In this document: piece after piece, positions 9,171 to 60,478 of the stretch
Layout: every line of letters begins with the position of its first letter
Numbering within the stretch: position 1 is the stretch's first letter
Assembly (NCBI RefSeq): GCF_009901585.1
Contig: NZ_WXYO01000001.1
Span: 310,001-374,000, forward strand
Reading direction: 5' to 3'
DNA: 64,000 bases
From: Poritiphilus flavus
Lineage (GTDB): Bacteria; Bacteroidota; Bacteroidia; Flavobacteriales; Flavobacteriaceae
Translations under genes and position numbers: made by a program
The notes under the pieces: generated by a model
What the model was told of the DNA's origin: nothing
What the model saw: only the letters and a program-made list of their open reading frames with translations
Databases searched by the model: none

Positions 9171-9743
9171 TCAATGATTCTTCTGGATAGGCTTAATTGC
9201 TTCATCAATCGCATAAAATTGTTTTTTTAAATCTGTAAATTGTACGCGTACTTCAGTCAAATCAAAGTCCAGCCCGTGTTCGGAAATTTCTTGATTTACA
9301 CTATTCAATGCATTTGTAGTCTTTATAAACCGTTTTTGAAGATTGAGCGCCCTATCTATCGTTTTGGGTTTCACTATTTGGAGAAGCCATAAAAGATAAA
9401 GTATTGCTGCAATAAAAATGCAGCTAGTAATAATTATGATTGCCGCAAACGCAATCATAATATTAGTAGCCCTATTGTCAAAGACTTCTCCCGCATCATT
9501 GTGGTACGCTTCATGACAATGGTTCCATCCATCAACAGGATAAAAGGTGCCGTCGATTATATTTTGAAACCAACGCCAGTACCAAGGGACTTTTCCTTCA
9601 GGATAATAATGATGATTGTAAAACCCTACCCTTGCGGAAATTGTGTTGTCGGGATTACCGCCTGCAATTGCATTTCCCAATTGGTCCACTGATACGAAAA
9701 TATTGGAGACAAACTTCCAAAGTCTTGATTTATTCGTTATCAT
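9171..9743 (-). CDS. Hypothetical membrane protein
   Basis: 190 residues. A soluble N-terminal part of about 90 residues rich in Trp, His and Tyr (NHHYYPEGKVPWYWRWFQN), one long membrane segment (IMIAFAAIIIITSCIFIAAI, about 96-120) and a C-terminal helical region of about 65 residues. No family recognised. First gene of the minus-strand group 9743-6362. Confidence 0.68.
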   Translation of the reverse strand: MITNKSRLWKFVSNIFVSVDQLGNAIAGGNPDNTISARVGFYNHHYYPEGKVPWYWRWFQNIIDGTFYPVDGWNHCHEAYHNDAGEVFDNRATNIMIAFAAIIIITSCIFIAAILYLLWLLQIVKPKTIDRALNLQKRFIKTTNALNSVNQEISEHGLDFDLTEVRVQFTDLKKQFYAIDEAIKPIQKNH

Positions 9744-9973: not shown

Positions 9974-9999
9974 AAAAATACCCATTCATGGGTATTTTT
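9974..9999. terminator. Bidirectional hairpin terminator candidate
   Basis: A 12-bp perfect inverted repeat with a 2-base centre (AAAAATACCCAT / ATGGGTATTTTT), ending in T runs on both strands. It directly follows the stop of a minus-strand remnant frame and would end transcripts from either side. Confidence 0.6.
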
Positions 10000-48447: not shown

Positions 48448-49116
48448 CTAAACCTTGTTACCGTCATTTTTTAAAAGATTGAAAAACTCGGCACGCCTAT
48501 CCTCATTTTCAAATACGCCGCCATAGTCCAGGGTGGTGGTATAACTTTCCTTATCCTTGATGCCTCTGGAGGAAACACATAAGTGCCTGGCATGTACAAC
48601 AACGATGACATCCCGCGTACCCAACACCTCCTGAAGGTCTTTAAGAATCTGAAGACAGAGACGTTCCTGAACCTGTGGCCTGTGGGAGTAATAATCAACT
48701 AAGCGGTTTATTTTGGACAAGCCCACTACCTTTTCTCCAGGAATGTAACCCACATGCGCCTTCCCTGCGATGGGTAAGAAGTGGTGTTCACAGGAGGAGT
48801 CTATAGTGATATCCTGTTCCACCAGCATTCGTTGATAACCGTAAGTATTTGGGAAGGTAGAGATCTTTGGCTTGTTTTTAGGATCCAGACCGTAGAACAA
48901 TTCTTTAACATACATTTTGGCAAAGCGGTATGGAGTTCCCGACAGACTTTCGTCTGAAAGGTCTAAACCCAACTCCTCCATTATTTTGGAAAAATGGAAC
49001 TGAATATTGCTGATTTTCTCCGCATCCGTATGCGCAAATGCATCTTCTCGCATAGGGGTTTTGAGGGAAGTGCCAATATGGTTGTTCCCTATAACCTCTA
49101 TTTTGGATTTATCCAT
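48448..49116 (-). CDS. folE: GTP cyclohydrolase I (type IA)
   Basis: 222 residues, usual length. Catalyses GTP to 7,8-dihydroneopterin triphosphate, first step of folate and pterin synthesis. Zn ligands are all present: SSCEHHFLP (Cys, His) and ARHLCVSSRGI (Cys); GEKVVGLSKINRLVDYYSHRPQVQE is given here in part as GLSKINRLVDYYSHRPQ, the conserved block before helix 5. Ten bp downstream of the MerC-like gene, and so probably driven by the same promoter at 49614-49641. A zinc-dependent enzyme under a proposed zinc repressor suggests this is a spare copy. Confidence 0.95.
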   Translation of the reverse strand: MDKSKIEVIGNNHIGTSLKTPMREDAFAHTDAEKISNIQFHFSKIMEELGLDLSDESLSGTPYRFAKMYVKELFYGLDPKNKPKISTFPNTYGYQRMLVEQDITIDSSCEHHFLPIAGKAHVGYIPGEKVVGLSKINRLVDYYSHRPQVQERLCLQILKDLQEVLGTRDVIVVVHARHLCVSSRGIKDKESYTTTLDYGGVFENEDRRAEFFNLLKNDGNKV

Positions 49117-49126
49117 AAAGACAGAT

Positions 49127-49546
49127 TTAATGTGTTATGTGATCGGCACAACAATGCTCATCCTCACATTGGCAATAGCGACGATTGTAAAAATGAAGAA
49201 AGATCAGACCTATGGTAGGAAGATATATTACTTCCTCAGCAAGACGCCACAATTCTAATTTCTCATTGATTATGATCAAAGCCAATGCGCCCCATAAACC
49301 CCAGAAGGCATATCTCACCCACTTTTTAGAAGTTTTCCTGGCCGACCAGTACACAGCGAAAAATGAAATAAGCAGAAAAGTCAAATCCAAAGTTCCCCAC
49401 CACCAGGGATGTACCTCTCCTGCAACCGCCGAACCCGCCTGGGCTACGAAAAGGAGTGGCGTTGCTATACAGTGTACAAAACACAGGCTACTGGCCATTA
49501 CTCCAATAAAGTCGGATTTGGAGGTCAGATTGACTACTTTCATCAT
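49127..49546 (-). CDS. MerC-domain membrane protein
   Basis: 139 residues from ATG 49546; TTG 49552 is also possible. Four membrane segments with MASSLCFVHCIATPLLFV, the CxxxC-like/His motif of MerC-type proteins, and a Cys/His-rich tail (CQCEDEHCCADH). MerC proteins are small inner-membrane carriers of heavy-metal ions; in Bacteroidota they are often next to Fur-type regulators. With the palindrome upstream and the zinc operon on the other side, a zinc-related role is likelier than mercury. Confidence 0.85.
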   Translation of the reverse strand: MMKVVNLTSKSDFIGVMASSLCFVHCIATPLLFVAQAGSAVAGEVHPWWWGTLDLTFLLISFFAVYWSARKTSKKWVRYAFWGLWGALALIIINEKLELWRLAEEVIYLPTIGLIFLHFYNRRYCQCEDEHCCADHITH

Positions 49547-49613
49547 GAGCAAAAACTCATTTTAAGGTTAGACAATACGAAACTACTCTGTAGCCCCGAT
49601 CATAATATCTGCG

Positions 49614-49641
49614 CAAAAGTAGTCTATTTTTGTAAATGCAA
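49614..49641 (-). promoter_or_regulatory. Minus-strand promoter of the merC-like/folE genes
   Basis: Flavobacterial type: TTG (-33; complement of 49639-49641), 17 bases, TACTTTTG (-7, TAnnTTTG; complement of 49614-49621). The -33 lies inside the left arm of the palindrome. Confidence 0.6.
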
Positions 49642-49655
49642 CTCGGTTGCATTTA
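49633..49655. promoter_or_regulatory. Palindromic operator, probable Zur box
   Basis: A 23-bp perfect inverted repeat: 10-base arms TAAATGCAAC / GTTGCATTTA around TCG. It is in the 139-bp gap between the divergent merC-like and ABC genes and covers the -33 regions of both promoters, so one repressor could block both. Fur-family sites have this size and symmetry, and a Fur/Zur gene ends the plus-strand operon. Confidence 0.75.
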
Positions 49656-49672
49656 TATTTCTTTTACTTTTG
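49647..49672 (+). promoter_or_regulatory. Plus-strand promoter of the zinc ABC operon
   Basis: TACTTTTG (-7) at 49665-49672 and TTG at 49647-49649 inside the right arm of the palindrome; the 15-base spacing is a little short. The start codon follows at 49686, so the leader is very short. Confidence 0.5.
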
Positions 49673-49685
49673 CAAAAATGTTCTG

Positions 49686-50312
49686 ATGATCAAGACATCA
49701 AATCTGAGCTATGCCTATGAAAATGGACAAGAGTTCACTTTCCCTGATATAGACCTGGATCCAGGGGATCATCTTCTTGTAATTGGCCCTTCCGGGGTTG
49801 GCAAGACAACCCTGCTCTACCTTATGGCAGGCCTTTTGGCTCCTTTGGATGGGACCATATCCATTGCAGGAACTGACTTACATTCTTTGGCCCTTAATAC
49901 ATTGAATAAATTTCGGGGGGAGCACATAGGTCTTATCTTTCAACAATACCACTTCATCAAATCCCTGAATGTTTCAGATAATCTTCGCCTAAGGCAAAGT
50001 TTCCCTAAGAGCGCGAATGACAAAAAGAGAAGACTGGAGCTCGCCGAGCGCTTAGGACTGGCCGATCATCTCCATAAGAAAGTAACGGCCTTAAGTCAGG
50101 GACAGCAGCAAAGGCTTTCCATTGCCCTGGGACTCATCCACAGGCCTAAAATCGTTTTTGCAGATGAGCCCACTTCCAATTTAGATGATCTGAATTGTGT
50201 AAAGGTCATCGAGCTACTTAAGGAAGAGGCCGAAATATGTAAGAGCAGCTTATTAATTATTACCCATGATATGAGGGTAATGTCGCATTTTCAAAATCAG
50301 GTCGTACTATGA
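49686..50312 (+). CDS. LolD/MacB-type ABC transporter ATP-binding protein
   Basis: 208 residues from ATG 49686 (MIKTSNLSYAYENG); a longer frame would start inside the operator. Walker A GPSGVGKTT, Q loop LIFQQYHFI, signature LSQGQQQRLSIALGL, Walker B IVFADEPTSNLDD. The family powers FtsX-like permeases that act on envelope substrates. Its TGA overlaps the start of the permease gene (50309). In Zur regulons of gamma-proteobacteria (the zrg genes of Vibrio) a COG1136 ATPase occurs with COG0577 and DUF3299 proteins, the same set as here. Confidence 0.93.
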   Translation: MIKTSNLSYAYENGQEFTFPDIDLDPGDHLLVIGPSGVGKTTLLYLMAGLLAPLDGTISIAGTDLHSLALNTLNKFRGEHIGLIFQQYHFIKSLNVSDNLRLRQSFPKSANDKKRRLELAERLGLADHLHKKVTALSQGQQQRLSIALGLIHRPKIVFADEPTSNLDDLNCVKVIELLKEEAEICKSSLLIITHDMRVMSHFQNQVVL

Positions 50313-51565
50313 AGCTGAGTTATCTTGCTTACAGGAATATGATCTCCAAACCGCTCAACCTGATCTTGAGCCTGATGTTATTGTTGTTGAGCGTTTCATT
50401 AGTGACGTTTGTATTACAACTCAGCCAGCAATTGGGAGGGCAACTCAACAAGAACATCGCGCCTTTTGATATGGTTGTTGGCGCAAAGGGCAGTCCTTTA
50501 CAACTGGTTTTGTCTTCCGTACTGCACGTTGATGTTCCAACCGGTAATATTAAATTGGAGGAAGCCAAAACCCTTCAAAAACACCCATTTGTTCAGATAG
50601 CCATCCCTGTTTCCTATGGCGACAACTATAAAGGCTTCCGTATTCTAGGCACAGAACCCGGGTATCTGGATCATTACAATACCCAACTATCCCAGGGAAA
50701 ACTTTATAAAAGATCTTTCGAAGTAGTGGCCGGGAGCAATGTCGCCCGCCTGTTAGATCTAAAGGTTGGAGACCAGTTCGTTAGTTCTCATGGGCTGGCA
50801 GCTTCCGATGTTGATGTTCACGATGATCATCCTTTTATCATAACCGGGATCCTGGAGCCCTCCGGCACAGTGGTAGACCAGCTGCTGATTACCAATCTGG
50901 AAAGTATCTGGGATGCTCATGACCATGCGGAAGACGATCATAAGGAGGAAGGAGGTGATCACGATGAGGGAGAGCGTCATGAAGAGGATCACGATCATGA
51001 GGGGGATCATGAGCATGAAGATAAAGAGATAACCTCATTACTTGTAAAGTTCAAAAACCCGCTGGGCATGGTTCAACTTCCCAGATTCATCAATGAGAAT
51101 ACTTCCATGCAGGCAGCATTGCCTAGTTTCGAAGTACAGCGACTAATGGGACTGCTGGGTTCTGGGGTGCAAACTATAAATGGAATCGCGTTAGCCATCC
51201 TTTTAGTTTCCGGATTGAGTATCTTTATTAGTCTCTTAAGGACTATCCGGGAACGAAGACAGGAACTGGCACTTTTAAGAACCTACGGCCTGGGAACTGG
51301 ACAACTTCTTGGATTGGCCCTTCTGGAAGGACTATTTTTGGCTCTTATAGGATTTGTACTAGGATGGGTTCTGGGTAGGTTAGGGCTTTGGGCAGTTTCC
51401 CTTTATACACAAAAATCCTATGGATATGCCTTAGAAATATTAGGACCAGATACTACGGAATCAGTGCTGTTTGGCCTTATTATTGTATTAGCGGTAATTG
51501 CCACCTTGTTGGCTTCTCTTTCGATTTTCAAATTAAATGTTGCTAAAACTTTATCAGATGCTTAA
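50309..51565 (+). CDS. FtsX-like ABC permease with His-rich periplasmic loop
   Basis: 418 residues. One N-terminal membrane helix (about 15-37), a periplasmic domain of about 230 residues, and three C-terminal helices with GLSIFISLLRTIRERRQELALL and YGLGTGQLLGLALLEGLFLA typical of the FtsX fold. Between about 204 and 240 lies a stretch very rich in His, Asp and Glu (segments HDHAEDDHKEEGGDHDEG and HDHEGDHEHEDKE), an expected zinc-binding loop. Overlaps the next gene by 8 bases. Confidence 0.92.
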   Translation: MKLSYLAYRNMISKPLNLILSLMLLLLSVSLVTFVLQLSQQLGGQLNKNIAPFDMVVGAKGSPLQLVLSSVLHVDVPTGNIKLEEAKTLQKHPFVQIAIPVSYGDNYKGFRILGTEPGYLDHYNTQLSQGKLYKRSFEVVAGSNVARLLDLKVGDQFVSSHGLAASDVDVHDDHPFIITGILEPSGTVVDQLLITNLESIWDAHDHAEDDHKEEGGDHDEGERHEEDHDHEGDHEHEDKEITSLLVKFKNPLGMVQLPRFINENTSMQAALPSFEVQRLMGLLGSGVQTINGIALAILLVSGLSIFISLLRTIRERRQELALLRTYGLGTGQLLGLALLEGLFLALIGFVLGWVLGRLGLWAVSLYTQKSYGYALEILGPDTTESVLFGLIIVLAVIATLLASLSIFKLNVAKTLSDA

Positions 51566-51998
51566 ATCATTTTTAGTCGTTTTGTTCGTAACTTTTAGCT
51601 ACTCGTTGGTGGTGGCCCAGGACCAGTTGACGTGGGAGGATTTTGCCGATGTCAGTTTTGAACCCGTATACAGCGAGGAATACGGGGTGCATTTTTTGAT
51701 GCCCAAGTTTGGTGAGAAAATAAGATCATATAGAGGAAAAGAGGTAAGTATAAAGGGATACTTTTTGGATATTTCCGGTAGCGGAGAGGTATTTTTAGTG
51801 TCTCAAAACCCAATGGCGTCCTGTTTTTTCTGCGGAGCCGCAGGACCGGAAACCATTGTTGAAGTGCTCTTTAAGGAAAAGCCCGCTTTTAAGACGGACC
51901 AGATTGTAGTGGTTACCGGAGTGCTGGAACTCAACGCCAATGACGTATCCCATTGCAACTATATCCTGGAAGGGTCTAGCGGTAAATTGGTTAAGTAA
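51558..51998 (+). CDS. DUF3299-like secreted protein (copy 1)
   Basis: 146 residues from ATG 51558, inside the end of the permease gene. Signal peptide (FLVVLFVTFSYSLVVAQ), then LTWEDFADVSFEPVY, KEVSIKGYFLDISG and FLVSQNPMASCFFCGAAGPE. The W-E-D-F opening, the G-Y strand and the late Cys-x-x-Cys replace the usual DUF3299 (COG3495) pattern VPYFGACIHxPPPPPNQ. The CFFC pair could bind metal. Paralogue of the next gene. Confidence 0.78.
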   Translation: MLKSFLVVLFVTFSYSLVVAQDQLTWEDFADVSFEPVYSEEYGVHFLMPKFGEKIRSYRGKEVSIKGYFLDISGSGEVFLVSQNPMASCFFCGAAGPETIVEVLFKEKPAFKTDQIVVVTGVLELNANDVSHCNYILEGSSGKLVK

Positions 51999-52003
51999 AG
52001 AAA

Positions 52004-52441
52004 ATGCGTTTATTTCTTATCATAGTGTTGTGTTTGATCGGAACAGAAATCCATGCTCAAACCCTTTTGAGCTGGGCTGATCTATCTAATGGTATTTCTT
52101 GGGATACCCCCTCACCGGAAACCTATTTTCCAGAATTCCAGGAAGCCAATTTTTCATACAAAATGAAAGGCCTGGAAGGAGAAAAGGTGATTATCACAGG
52201 CTATTTGTTGGTTATGGACGTCAAAAGGTCGGTGTACCTTCTTTCGAAAAATCCTATGGCCTCCTGTTTTTTCTGTGGTAATGGTGGTCCTGAAACTGTT
52301 GTCGATCTGCAATTTGATGAGAATCCTCCCTTTGAGATGGATGAGTTGATTTCAGTCCAGGGCTTACTTCGGTTGAACCCTGATGATCCGAATGCCTGTT
52401 ACTATAAAATTGAAAAGGCGGATGCCGTGAGCCTTCGATAA
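52004..52441 (+). CDS. DUF3299-like secreted protein (copy 2)
   Basis: 145 residues, 5 bp after copy 1. Signal peptide (LFLIIVLCLIGTEIHAQ), LLSWADLSNGISWD, GEKVIITGYLLVMDV and LLSKNPMASCFFCGNGGPE, colinear with copy 1, so the pair arose by tandem duplication. Exported; probably acts with the His-rich permease in zinc handling (inference). Confidence 0.78.
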   Translation: MRLFLIIVLCLIGTEIHAQTLLSWADLSNGISWDTPSPETYFPEFQEANFSYKMKGLEGEKVIITGYLLVMDVKRSVYLLSKNPMASCFFCGNGGPETVVDLQFDENPPFEMDELISVQGLLRLNPDDPNACYYKIEKADAVSLR

Positions 52442-52451
52442 GCTGGAAAAT

Positions 52452-52856
52452 ATGAAAGAAGTAGATTACAAACAGCTTTTAGAACAAAAGGGACTGAAAA
52501 AAACCAAAGTCCGGATGACCTTGATCCGGCATTTTGTCCATTTGGATCATGCCCAGTCCTATAGTGACCTGCAAGCCGCATTGGTTAAAGAATTAGACAA
52601 GTCTACCCTATACCGAAATCTCACAAGTTTTGAGCAGGCAGGCATCATCCATCGAATTAACGACCATTCCGGAGTAGCTAAATATGCCTTTGGAGAATCT
52701 CCGATTGAAGGCGACGATCATGCCCACTTTGTGTGTGAGTGTTGCGAAACAGTATATTGTATGGAGACACCGGCTCCAGGTGAATTCAATGTCCCTGAAG
52801 GATTCAAAACGAACAAGGTGCAAACTATAATCAGGGGTATTTGTGCCGATTGCTGA
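52452..52856 (+). CDS. Fur-family repressor, probable Zur
   Basis: 134 residues. Winged helix: LKKTKVRMTLIRHFVHLD, LDKSTLYRNLTSFEQAGII and the wing HRINDHSGVAKYAFG; dimerisation part with DDHAHFVCECCETVYCME (His and the Cys-x-x-Cys of the structural site) and the C-terminal CADC. Fur, Zur and PerR are hard to tell apart by sequence; the operon content (His-rich zinc ABC system) points to Zur. Last gene of the 49686-52856 operon, allowing autoregulation through the palindrome. Confidence 0.85.
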   Translation: MKEVDYKQLLEQKGLKKTKVRMTLIRHFVHLDHAQSYSDLQAALVKELDKSTLYRNLTSFEQAGIIHRINDHSGVAKYAFGESPIEGDDHAHFVCECCETVYCMETPAPGEFNVPEGFKTNKVQTIIRGICADC

Positions 52857-53051: not shown

Positions 53052-54731
53052 ATGCCATATAATCGCAGAAAATTTATCAGCTTTTTAGGTAAGGCCAGTA
53101 TGGGAACCGCTATTTTACCTCCTTTTATTAGTAGTTGCGGGAACCTAGCAGATCCAACAGAAAAAACCATGGAAACCGGTCAGGGCGTGTTGGACAGGTT
53201 AAAGCAATTGAAGCTCGAGGGGCTCGCCCCGTCGAATAAAGACGATCTCCTGATGGCCAAAGGTTTAGACTATCATGTGATCGTACGCTGGGGCGAAGCG
53301 CTTGGTCCAAATGCCAGTTTTGGCTATAACAATGATTTCACCTGCTTTTTACCTCTTAGCGATGACGATCCTACCGATGGTTTGCTTTGGGTGAATCACG
53401 AATATGTCAATCCCCTTTTTGTTTCAGGCTTCGATCCCACCAAATATGAAAATCCCGACGAACATCGAACAAAGGAGCAAGTGGATAAAGAAATGTACAA
53501 TGTCGGCGGAAGCATTGTACGTATAAAACAGACCAATGGCAAATGGAATATCGTAAAGAACGATGCTCACAATCGCCGTATTACCGGAAAAACACCCATA
53601 GCGCTTAATTGGGATCATCCAATCAAAGGGGCTAAGACCGTAATTGGAACAAATAGTAATTGTTCAGGCGGAATTACCCCATGGAATACCTTTCTGACCT
53701 GTGAGGAAAACTACGATAGCTTTTTTGGAGAAACGGTTTATGATCTGGACAACCAGGCTCAACACCGTCCCAGTGAAGAAGGTTGGGAAAGATTCTACCC
53801 CTATCCCCCTGAGCATTATGGTTGGGTAGTGGAAGTAGATCCAAAGGACGGATCAGCCCAAAAGCACGTAGCAATTGGCAGATACGCCCATGAGTGTTGT
53901 ACGCTTTACGAATTGCCGGACAAACGTGTAGTGGCCTATTCCGGGGACGACAAAAACAATGAGCATTTGTACAAATTTGTTTCGTCTGAACCCGGTTCTC
54001 TAAAAGAGGGAATACTTTATGTAGCAGATACCGTAAATGGGCAATGGCTGGCCCTGGATTGGGAAAGCCAAACTGCGCTACAGGAAAGATTCAAAGACCA
54101 AACCGAAGTTCTGGTCCGCTGCCGTGAGGCTGCCAAGATCCTGGGTGCCACAGCGCTGAATCGTCCGGAGGATATCGAAATAGACCCCATTAGTGGAAGC
54201 GTATTCGTCTCGCTTACGAACAATACGGATAGAAACGATTTCCACGGTTCCATATTAAAAGTAGAGGAGACCAATGGGCAGTACGATTCCTTAACTTTTA
54301 AAGCTTCCACCTTTATGGCTGGCGGAGAGGAAAACGGTTTTTCCTGTCCAGATAACCTGGCTTTTGATATGGCCGGGAATTTATGGTTCACCTCAGATAT
54401 TTCCGGAAGCAAGATGAACAAAGACGGTCCCTACTTACCCTTTAAGAACAATAGTCTATTCGTAATTCCACGTCATGGAAAAGATCAGGGTAAGGTCATT
54501 CGCCTGGTTTCAGCCCCCAATGATGCGGAGCTTACCGGTCCCTGGTTCTCACCGGACGGAAAGACCTTGTTTTTAAGCGTACAACATCCCGGCGAGCAAA
54601 CCACAGATCTTAAAAACCCGACCAGTAAATGGCCTTTTGACGAAGATGGATTACCAAAACCCGCAGTGGTAGCTATTACCGGTGACCTCATAGAAAAACT
54701 AAACAAACTGCATCTTTTGGAACGAGCCTGA
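53052..54731 (+). CDS. PhoX-like (DUF839) phosphatase-family protein
   Basis: 559 residues. Tat-like signal with a lipobox (RRKFISFLGKASMGTAILPP, then SSC), then the PhoX/DUF839 beta-propeller: LLWVNHEYVNPLFVSG, NCSGGITPWNTFLTCEENYD, RYAHECCTLYELPDKRVVAY, RPEDIEIDPISGSVFVSLTN and FSCPDNLAFDMAGNLWF. PhoX members are Ca/Fe-dependent alkaline phosphatases outside the inner membrane; many relatives are uncharacterised. Single gene, 195 bp after the Fur gene. Confidence 0.9.
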   Translation: MPYNRRKFISFLGKASMGTAILPPFISSCGNLADPTEKTMETGQGVLDRLKQLKLEGLAPSNKDDLLMAKGLDYHVIVRWGEALGPNASFGYNNDFTCFLPLSDDDPTDGLLWVNHEYVNPLFVSGFDPTKYENPDEHRTKEQVDKEMYNVGGSIVRIKQTNGKWNIVKNDAHNRRITGKTPIALNWDHPIKGAKTVIGTNSNCSGGITPWNTFLTCEENYDSFFGETVYDLDNQAQHRPSEEGWERFYPYPPEHYGWVVEVDPKDGSAQKHVAIGRYAHECCTLYELPDKRVVAYSGDDKNNEHLYKFVSSEPGSLKEGILYVADTVNGQWLALDWESQTALQERFKDQTEVLVRCREAAKILGATALNRPEDIEIDPISGSVFVSLTNNTDRNDFHGSILKVEETNGQYDSLTFKASTFMAGGEENGFSCPDNLAFDMAGNLWFTSDISGSKMNKDGPYLPFKNNSLFVIPRHGKDQGKVIRLVSAPNDAELTGPWFSPDGKTLFLSVQHPGEQTTDLKNPTSKWPFDEDGLPKPAVVAITGDLIEKLNKLHLLERA

Positions 54732-54816: not shown

Positions 54817-55644
54817 TTACTCTTTAAGCGTCACCGTTCTGGTGACCTGATTAAATGGTCCTGGAATCAAATTTCCTTCTCCGTCTATTAACTCCAACTG
54901 AATGGTCACTTCACCCATTGGTAATCCCCTGACTATATGGGGAGCCCATTCAGAAATCGTAAATTCATTACCGTTTATTGTTGCCCTAACCTTATTCCCA
55001 TTCTCTGAAAGCGTGGTATTCAACACAAAAAAATCTAACATCAGATTCTCCGTATCTGCACCGGAATATTCTCCTTTTGGCCGACTGTAAATCAACGTTG
55101 GGGACTCCATGTCCAATCCTAAAGTGTCTTCGGCGTCCGGGCCTACGACCATCTTCTTCACCACTACCGACCTCTCATTCTTGACAGATTCGTGGTATGA
55201 ACGACTCAGGAAAGCAACCAAATGATGCACTCCATTCGGAATCTCCTTCGCGAAGGCTGGCTCATAATGAGCGGAATAGGGTTGGTTATTCAAAATAAAG
55301 TGGATGTGCTGCCCCTTACCCGAATTGGCCAGCCGCTCAGCGTTAGGGCCCGAGGTTTGTGCCCCAAGTTCGTAATTGTTCATTGTAAAATTAAAGTTGA
55401 CTTCTCCTCCATCTGCAATAGTGGTGTTTTTGGGTTCTTCCAATTGCAGAACAGCATCAGCATAGGCCGGGGAACCTTCCAGTTTTTCCAGGGTAATTTG
55501 CGGGGCTTCGCTTTCCATGGATCCCTGCATTTCTCTGTCCCTGGCACTGTCCACGCTGGAATCCTTTTTCTGCTGCTTGCAGGAGACCAAAACAACAGCT
55601 AAAAGAATCAGGCTCATAATAATAGGTGGTTTATTCATTTTCAT
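54817..55644 (-). CDS. Putative lipoprotein
   Basis: 275 residues. Lipobox VVLVSC (Cys about 22), acidic linker, then beta domains: VNFNFTMNNYELGAQT, HIHFILNNQPYSAHYEPAF, NGVHHLVAFLSRSYHESVKN. The His-containing strands resemble the small DUF4399-like domain; not certain. Likely envelope protein. It lies 29 bp after the next minus-strand gene (55674-56642), and the two may be co-transcribed. Confidence 0.75.
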   Translation of the reverse strand: MKMNKPPIIMSLILLAVVLVSCKQQKKDSSVDSARDREMQGSMESEAPQITLEKLEGSPAYADAVLQLEEPKNTTIADGGEVNFNFTMNNYELGAQTSGPNAERLANSGKGQHIHFILNNQPYSAHYEPAFAKEIPNGVHHLVAFLSRSYHESVKNERSVVVKKMVVGPDAEDTLGLDMESPTLIYSRPKGEYSGADTENLMLDFFVLNTTLSENGNKVRATINGNEFTISEWAPHIVRGLPMGEVTIQLELIDGEGNLIPGPFNQVTRTVTLKE

Positions 55645-60450: not shown

Positions 60451-60478
60451 GAAAATCAGGCCGTTGGGCCTGATTTTC
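60451..60478. terminator. Strong bidirectional terminator
   Basis: GAAAATCAGGCC - GTTG - GGCCTGATTTTC: 12-bp perfect stem, 4-base loop, T/A runs on both sides. It lies between the convergent TonB receptor gene and tRNA-Leu. Confidence 0.85.

Follow-up and report, generated by a model that had tools for sequence, protein, structure and literature searches.

We propose that a Zur-like repressor, the product of 52452-52856, uses as its operator the palindrome at positions 49633-49655 of the window (the whole 64-kb stretch of DNA analysed here) and that the palindrome acts as a zinc-starvation switch for the two divergent operons on either side of it, a reading to which we give a probability of roughly 0.8. 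The layout is known in other bacteria; what appears unusual here is the putative repressor and, among its predicted targets, an unexpected relative of mercury transporters. The site would be an operator of the Zur type whose core had been predicted before, used here in another phylum, on another set of genes, by a variant regulator.

The palindrome and the two operons that it separates

The palindrome is flanked on the minus strand by merC and folE, which lie 10 nt apart, and on the plus strand by five genes (ABC ATPase, permease, X1, X2, and a Fur-family gene) that span 49689-52856. Because neighbouring genes of the plus-strand set overlap or are separated by at most 10 nt, they probably form one operon; the last of the five matches PF01475, in agreement with the earlier note, which had the ABC operon end with a Fur/Zur-type gene. 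The features of the locus, together with a second Zur-like gene of the same genome, are as follows.

48448..49116, minus strand: FolE, GTP cyclohydrolase I (PF01227, E 7.1e-58; above the cut-off of NF006824)
49127..49543, minus strand: MerC-family small membrane protein (PF03203, E 3.1e-19, 70 bits against a cut-off of 27.6)
49614..49641, minus strand: predicted merC-folE promoter (TTG at 49641-49639, 17-nt spacer, TACTTTTG at 49621-49614)
49633..49655, no strand: predicted Zur-type operator, 10-3-10 palindrome TAAATGCAAC-TCG-GTTGCATTTA
49647..49672, plus strand: predicted ABC-operon promoter (TTG at 49647-49649, 15-nt spacer, TACTTTTG at 49665-49672)
49689..50312, plus strand: ABC transporter ATPase, LolD/DevA-like (PF00005; below the cut-off of 25 NCBIfam models among the matches listed)
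50309..51565, plus strand: FtsX/MacB-type permease with a His/Asp/Glu-rich loop (PF02687, PF12704)
51552..51998, plus strand: X1, small OB-fold protein with a signal-peptide-like N-terminal helix and a conserved MASCFFCG (AF2 pLDDT 82)
52004..52441, plus strand: X2, paralogue of X1 (34% identical)
52452..52856, plus strand: Fur-family regulator, Zur-like (PF01475, E 7.5e-14, above cut-off)
G000:C17:243668-244060 (locus L131 7669-8061), minus strand: second Zur-like paralog, FALCLNC in its sensory region

The earlier note had described a perfect palindrome of 23 bp. Its position and both 10-bp arms are exact, but the 3-nt centre, TCG, is not self-complementary, and the spacer is therefore asymmetric; the 17-bp core of the box, ATGCAACTCGGTTGCAT, lies at 49636-49652. 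No other perfect 10-bp-arm palindrome with a 3-nt spacer occurs in the window. When spacers of 0-8 nt were allowed, 20 dinucleotide shuffles averaged 1.45 listings and the window gave 8, which fall at 4 distinct places, so that the palindrome is modestly improbable and not decisive alone. The further perfect palindromes with arms of at least 10 bp are at 9974-9999, 9434-9460, and 60451-60478. Unlike the shuffle statistics, the conservation of the palindrome in related genomes is what we regard as decisive at the level of sequence.

Searching genome contigs with the regulator protein, we obtained 13 loci, of which 12 encode regulators with 60-80% identity and come from Flagellimonas, Allomuricauda, Ulvibacterium, and other Flavobacteriaceae or MAGs, and the 13th is a Saprospiraceae contig at 41%. 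An equivalent palindrome adjoins a merC-like gene in all 12 close relatives, with the exact TGCAACNNNGTTGCA core in nine of them and one change in L022 and L027; in the L016 box, TGCGAC...GTCGCA, a matched change in both arms preserves the symmetry. The other flank of the box is an ABC operon ending in the regulator in 11 of the 12 and the regulator itself in L022; a gene of the 52452 type is co-located with the box in every one of the 12. As in the window, folE follows merC in five close relatives (L017, L018, L021, L023, and L026). The distance from the centre of the box to the ABC start codon is 40-47 nt in the window and in the 11 relatives with the ABC gene alongside. In the Saprospiraceae contig, a weaker form of the box separates a MerC-like gene from the regulator gene.

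When the window and 11 relatives were compared without gaps, 15 of the 20 arm positions proved identical in all 12 sequences. Around the arms, identity drops to 4-8 of 12 at many positions and is high at two TAnnTTTG elements and at A/T runs. This pattern also bears on the idea that the palindrome is a transcription terminator or an RNA hairpin and no protein-binding site, as might be thought from a simple terminator scan, which lists 49631-49657 as a stem followed by TTTCTTTTAC. We consider this extremely improbable: the promoters on its two sides are divergent and no gene reads into the palindrome, the letters of the arms themselves, beyond their pairing, are near-fixed, and elsewhere the box adjoins zur genes in either orientation.

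Promoters of Bacteroidota follow a -33/-7 pattern. The predicted minus-side promoter, with its 17-nt spacing, fits this pattern well, and the plus-side spacing of 15 nt is short. Among the relatives, the distance from TTG to TACTTTTG on the plus side varies from 10 nt (L021 and L023) to 17 nt (L018), so that the GTTG need not be the -33 element there; the TAnnTTTG element of this promoter is retained. The palindrome had been placed on both -33 elements by the earlier note; it does cover the -33 region of both promoters, but a well-spaced -33/-7 pair is seen on the minus side only.

Other copies of the box and the proposed link to zinc

A 19-mer scan of the own genome found one perfect site, with every other site carrying at least two mismatches. 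We also used a sequence-only model of the box (R1), built from 25 boxes, to score 150 of 2524 first-look candidates in the own genome (4.99 Mb). Among these 150 candidates, R1 matched at E <= 5 in two places, the window box (E 5.5e-6) and G000:C17:244066-244090 (E 0.011), which lies directly upstream of the second Zur-like gene. The earlier note had held that its reading would suffer if the motif stood upstream of many unrelated genes; with two such places among the candidates scored, the motif is not scattered in this way. Applied to eight relatives, R1 gave between one and four boxes in each at E < 1e-3. Two looser searches of the own genome were set aside: the 15-mer TGCAACNNNGTTGCA with 2 mismatches was too permissive (115 forward against 52 reversed-control matches), and the 19-mer with 3 mismatches gave 25 matches against 8 in the control. 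Six other places in the own genome match the 15-mer with 1 mismatch; five are within open frames (L002-L005 and L006, the last by coordinates within a FolE gene), and one is the C17 site.

Across 149 genomes of the family (own included), the 19-mer AATGCAACNNNGTTGCATT with at most 1 mismatch occurs at 17 sites in 15 genomes, against 1 of 149 for the reversed control; the box, at this stringency, is absent from the other 134 and so is not general in the family. Twelve of the 17 sites are immediately beside a merC, Zur-like, ABC, or COG0523 gene. The remaining five adjoin an S46 peptidase (G029 and G160), a lipoprotein-dcd pair (G124; we take the second gene to be dcd from its sequence), a homologue of a lipoprotein-like protein of the window (G134), and a G117 gene, the start of which resembles the carbonic-anhydrase-like gene of L122. 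Class-wide, the exact 17-mer was found at 52 sites in 43 of 395 genomes, with 5 control matches, and several of these sites fall within open frames. Thirty of the 52 loci were fetched, and 15 of them (own included) have a TonB receptor, COG0523, Fur-family, merC, ABC, or folE gene within 600 nt; none of these was recognized within that distance in the other 15.

With respect to curated models, the box-linked ZigA relative scores 564 bits against NF038288 (below the cut-off of 600), the ZnuD-like TonB receptor 130 bits against NF038289 (below 950), and the carbonic-anhydrase relative 115 bits against NF047901, the model of a metal-independent carbonic anhydrase (below 350); the box-linked HisI matches PF01502 at E 9e-26. 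A ZigA-size COG0523 gene is present in five of nine genomes compared and has the box in front in four of the five (not in G081). The four genomes lacking one have one strong box each (G000, G079, and G084) or two (G082); in the own genome, no ZigA-size COG0523 gene was found, and the single PF02492 match sits in a 1161-aa frame. Taken together, the genes that stand by the box in other Bacteroidia (Zur-like, merC, folE, ZigA-type COG0523, ZnuD-like receptor, and hisI) have the appearance of a zinc-starvation set. We note that hisI (PRA-CH) is beside the box at L115 1540-2113 (by similarity to L128) and at L128 12850-13372 (by Pfam). Further, in six relatives (L112, L116, L117, L118, L123, and L125), merC, zur, or a TonB receptor is preceded by two boxes 38-40 bp apart, which suggests that two dimers may bind the DNA there; the window has a single box.

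The core itself provides a second link to zinc. In the portion of PMC545781 drawn on here, Rodionov et al. (2004) gave ATGCAACNNNGTTGCAT as the predicted Zur site for znuABC-zur of two species, Desulfovibrio vulgaris and D. desulfuricans, and the window core fits this predicted site. Common to the two systems, as far as that portion describes znuABC-zur_D, are the 17-bp core, the 3-nt spacer, and the location upstream of a metal ABC operon that ends in its own Fur-family gene. The window differs in belonging to another phylum, in having a LolD/FtsX-type ABC system in place of znuABC (no znuABC-type gene was recognized among the genes examined here), and in its single box for two divergent operons, with merC and folE opposite. 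In the literature searched, we found no published parallel closer than the Desulfovibrio site. In known Zur regulons, according to the sections of PMC6103462 used here, a single Fur-family repressor controls zinc ABC uptake, a COG0523 GTPase, a FolE-type enzyme, TonB receptors, and HisI paralogs, and hisI2 is a listed target in Pseudomonas protegens; the window locus is alike in its gene classes and differs in that its FolE has zinc ligands. Sequence comparison finds at this locus the arrangement that marks Zur control, a palindromic operator that overlaps the promoters of zinc genes, often including that of the regulator's own gene.

Neither "Bacteroid" nor "Flavobact" occurs in the main texts of the Zur reviews PMC6103462 and PMC8000910, where "merc" appears in a reference author name only. 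The open literature searched (including the accessible parts of PMC9976891, PMC11960050, and PMC3516566, with subscription papers and RegPrecise outside its scope) yielded neither a Zur site nor a Zur regulon from the Bacteroidota, and Zur is mentioned in papers on Porphyromonas gingivalis Fur, in the parts available (PMC6613475 and PMC4222909). The present locus offers a concrete predicted Zur operator, with a list of putative targets, for a phylum that the main texts of the two reviews leave unnamed.

From the small number of boxes in the own genome, the zinc-starvation genes by the box elsewhere, and the fit of the core to the Desulfovibrio Zur site, we infer, as the earlier note had done, a compact two-sided zinc-starvation switch. 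When zinc is sufficient, a metal-loaded repressor dimer would occupy the box, cover the -33 regions, and shut both promoters; upon zinc starvation, the repressor would leave the box, and both operons would be turned on. The starved cell would then make the ABC ATPase/His-rich permease/OB-fold system and the MerC-family protein, both probably for zinc acquisition, as well as the extra FolE and more of its own repressor. The parts of this scheme that we infer are that the signal is zinc, that the metal-bound protein is the one that represses, that the regulator acts on its own operon, and that the ABC system and the MerC-family protein serve in transport.

The regulator and its possible rivals

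The regulator has a structural Cys4 site (C95, C98, C131, and C134) that is invariant in 14 of 14 sequences, and the 20 residues that precede its H90-A-H92 contain no cysteine. When 50 aligned sequences with an HxH..C..C motif were compared, 36 had a cysteine within the 20 residues before the motif, and the 14 that had none were 13 window-type proteins and L071; a 51st sequence, a canonical Fur, is without the motif. The 13 window-type regulators form one clade (support 99/99, the bootstrap being not fully settled), and L071 is placed as its sister on a long branch. According to the sections of PMC6103462 used here, substitution of the sensory cysteine (C88S in Escherichia coli Zur and C79S in Streptomyces coelicolor Zur) abolishes sensing or binding, and the sensory ligands can vary from one Zur to another. 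In our reading, the regulator is Zur-like and its sensory site has been rebuilt, the conserved residues His67, His90, His92, and Cys103 being candidate ligands, and we suggest that proteins of the window type work like Zur, as a variant of it. Occurring in nature and lacking the customary sensory cysteine, such Zur variants would lend themselves to work on how the metal site of Fur-family sensors changes.

Against NF008646, the sole Zur-named model among the matches listed, the regulator scores 20.4 bits (cut-off 167), which is no better than its scores against Fur and PerR models, and among the matches listed no Fur or PerR cut-off was passed either. Its AF2 model (pLDDT 84) has the Fur fold. 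Structures of all three kinds (Fur, PerR, and Zur) match it, and Zur ranks below the other two: the best match is the Fur 1mzb (Z 13.2, rmsd 4.8, 125 aligned), and the Zur 4mtd_B reaches Z 11.9 (rmsd 3.2, 129 aligned). By sequence as by fold, the nearest solved structures are those of Fur and PerR rather than Zur. These structures, along with the missing sensory-region cysteine, the naming of MerC for mercury, and the resemblance of the box-linked TonB receptor of L128 to siderophore receptors, could indicate that the switch answers another metal (iron, manganese, copper, or mercury) or peroxide by way of a Fur-family regulator with changed specificity. However, a separate canonical Fur is present in the genome, the box partners elsewhere are a ZigA-type GTPase, a ZnuD-like receptor, HisI, FolE, and a carbonic-anhydrase-like gene, and the same core marks znuABC-zur in Desulfovibrio in the part of PMC545781 considered here; we therefore think it very unlikely that the signal is other than zinc.

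The own genome has three Fur-family genes, namely the canonical Fur, the window gene, and the C17 paralog. The latter keeps cysteines in its sensory region (FALCLNC), and phmmer aligns this stretch with RCSEHHHH of Mycobacterium tuberculosis FurB; the paralog also has its own weak related box (C17:244066-244090), which is within 10 nt upstream of its called start, and G081 and G084 also have such paralogs, each with a related adjacent site that scores weakly (E 1.9 and 2.1). A point absent from the earlier note, as is the missing cysteine of the regulator, is that this second paralog might read the box too. The main zinc sensor at the box could even be the C17 paralog, in which case the 52452 protein, having lost the cysteines, would answer another signal or only tune the switch. 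We regard this as unlikely on three grounds. First, the only Fur-family genes found in G079, G085, and G134 (PF01475, E <= 0.001; the stated completeness, for G134 alone, is 99%) are canonical Fur and the window type, yet these genomes have 1, 4, and 3 strong boxes, respectively, so that the window type is the probable reader of the box there, barring a missed gene. Second, the arms at paralog-type genes (two examples) read TTA[A/T]TGC[A/G]AC, not TAAATGCAAC. Third, the co-location of the 52452-type gene with the box throughout the close relatives counts against the paralog as main sensor. The C17 paralog is divergent from what appears, from its sequence, to be a thioredoxin-reductase-type FAD oxidoreductase, and N-termini similar to that of this oxidoreductase stand by the box in L235 and L243.

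What seems new in the preferred reading, in which the 52452 protein reads the box as a zinc-responsive repressor, is a clade of regulators without the sensory-cysteine region needed by the Zur proteins of E. coli and Streptomyces, and the recurrence of a MerC-family protein as a partner of the box. As a tentative extension, which we hold to be possible but rather doubtful, the Zur-like clade of Flagellimonas/Allomuricauda-type bacteria may have dropped the sensing cysteine and read zinc through the rebuilt site (candidates His67, His90, His92, and Cys103) while the ancestral operator was kept, and its MerC-family target may be a zinc importer, such "mercury transporters" being zinc-starvation transporters by origin.

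Gene products of the two operons

The window MerC-family protein is like the MerC mercury transport proteins in scoring above the curated Pfam cut-off (PF03203) and differs from them in its setting, since no mer operon gene was recognized beside it and predicted zinc-starvation genes are found instead. Asp11, Cys21, His24, Cys25, and His117 are invariant in all 24 aligned homologues (24 of 25; L017 dropped out of the alignment, and L022 and L027 were not included). An alternative TTG start of merC is at 49552. With the merC-like gene at the box in every close relative, the MerC family appears to be a recurrent partner of the box.

The genome has four FolE-family genes, and in the alignment all four contain CEHH and a second Cys, which we take to be the zinc-ligand positions of the type I enzyme (CEHH...C). 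A reading of the extra FolE as a zinc-sparing enzyme of the FolE2 kind (zinc-independent GTP cyclohydrolase) was therefore rejected.

On the plus side, the permease loop has 9 His in the 40 residues from residue 197. Of 11 close operons (the window among them, and L019 omitted because of a split match), nine have 9-17 His in the richest 40 residues of the permease, and L020 and L024 have 5 and 7, respectively; in 11 more distant operons, the count ranges from 3 to 14. X1 and X2 belong to no Pfam family, and SCFFCG is invariant in their family. A Foldseek search with the AF2 model of X1 returned OB-fold proteins (best E 5e-4, TM-scores near 0.4), and a profile scan of 24 family members gave weak DUF1980_C matches in seven (best E 0.009). 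In the part of PMC9817125 used here, the Vibrio ZrgABCDE operon is a Zur-controlled zinc uptake operon with an ABC ATPase, a permease, and the small ZrgE (DUF3299); shared with the window are the ABC ATPase and permease in a Zur-type operon with small proteins alongside. No ZrgA (DUF2796) was recognized at the window locus, and any kinship of X1/X2 with ZrgE would be conjectural: the profile scan gives no support to an assignment of X1/X2 to DUF3299, with no match in 24 members at E 10 with filters on.

The X family is present in 40 of 295 Bacteroidia genomes. ABC and permease genes are both clustered with an X gene in 15 of 20 fetched regions (the X gene of L221 being known from the X-family genome search only), the permease alone is found in L218, which starts at a contig end, and L220, and neither is found in L219, L225, and L226. 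A palindrome search upstream of 15 distant ABC/X operons showed the box or a close form in L211, L221, L222, and L229 and no common palindrome in the other 11, which implies that the ABC/X operon uses other sites or none in much of the class. Our reading would tie the MerC family and this widespread ABC/OB-fold system to zinc starvation.

Two further genes lie beyond the regulator. A PhoX-type alkaline phosphatase (53052-54731) begins 195 nt downstream of it, and in G019 (L116) the merC-folE pair behind the box is followed by a PhoX with 74% identity to it. Since PhoX enzymes do not require zinc, 53052-54731 may be a zinc-sparing phosphatase of the same set. The lipoprotein-like protein at 54817-55644 (minus strand) has no match to a family in either Pfam or NCBIfam. 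In G134, the box immediately precedes the gene of a homologue (L120 5195-5986), and further homologues are near boxes in L122 and L129.
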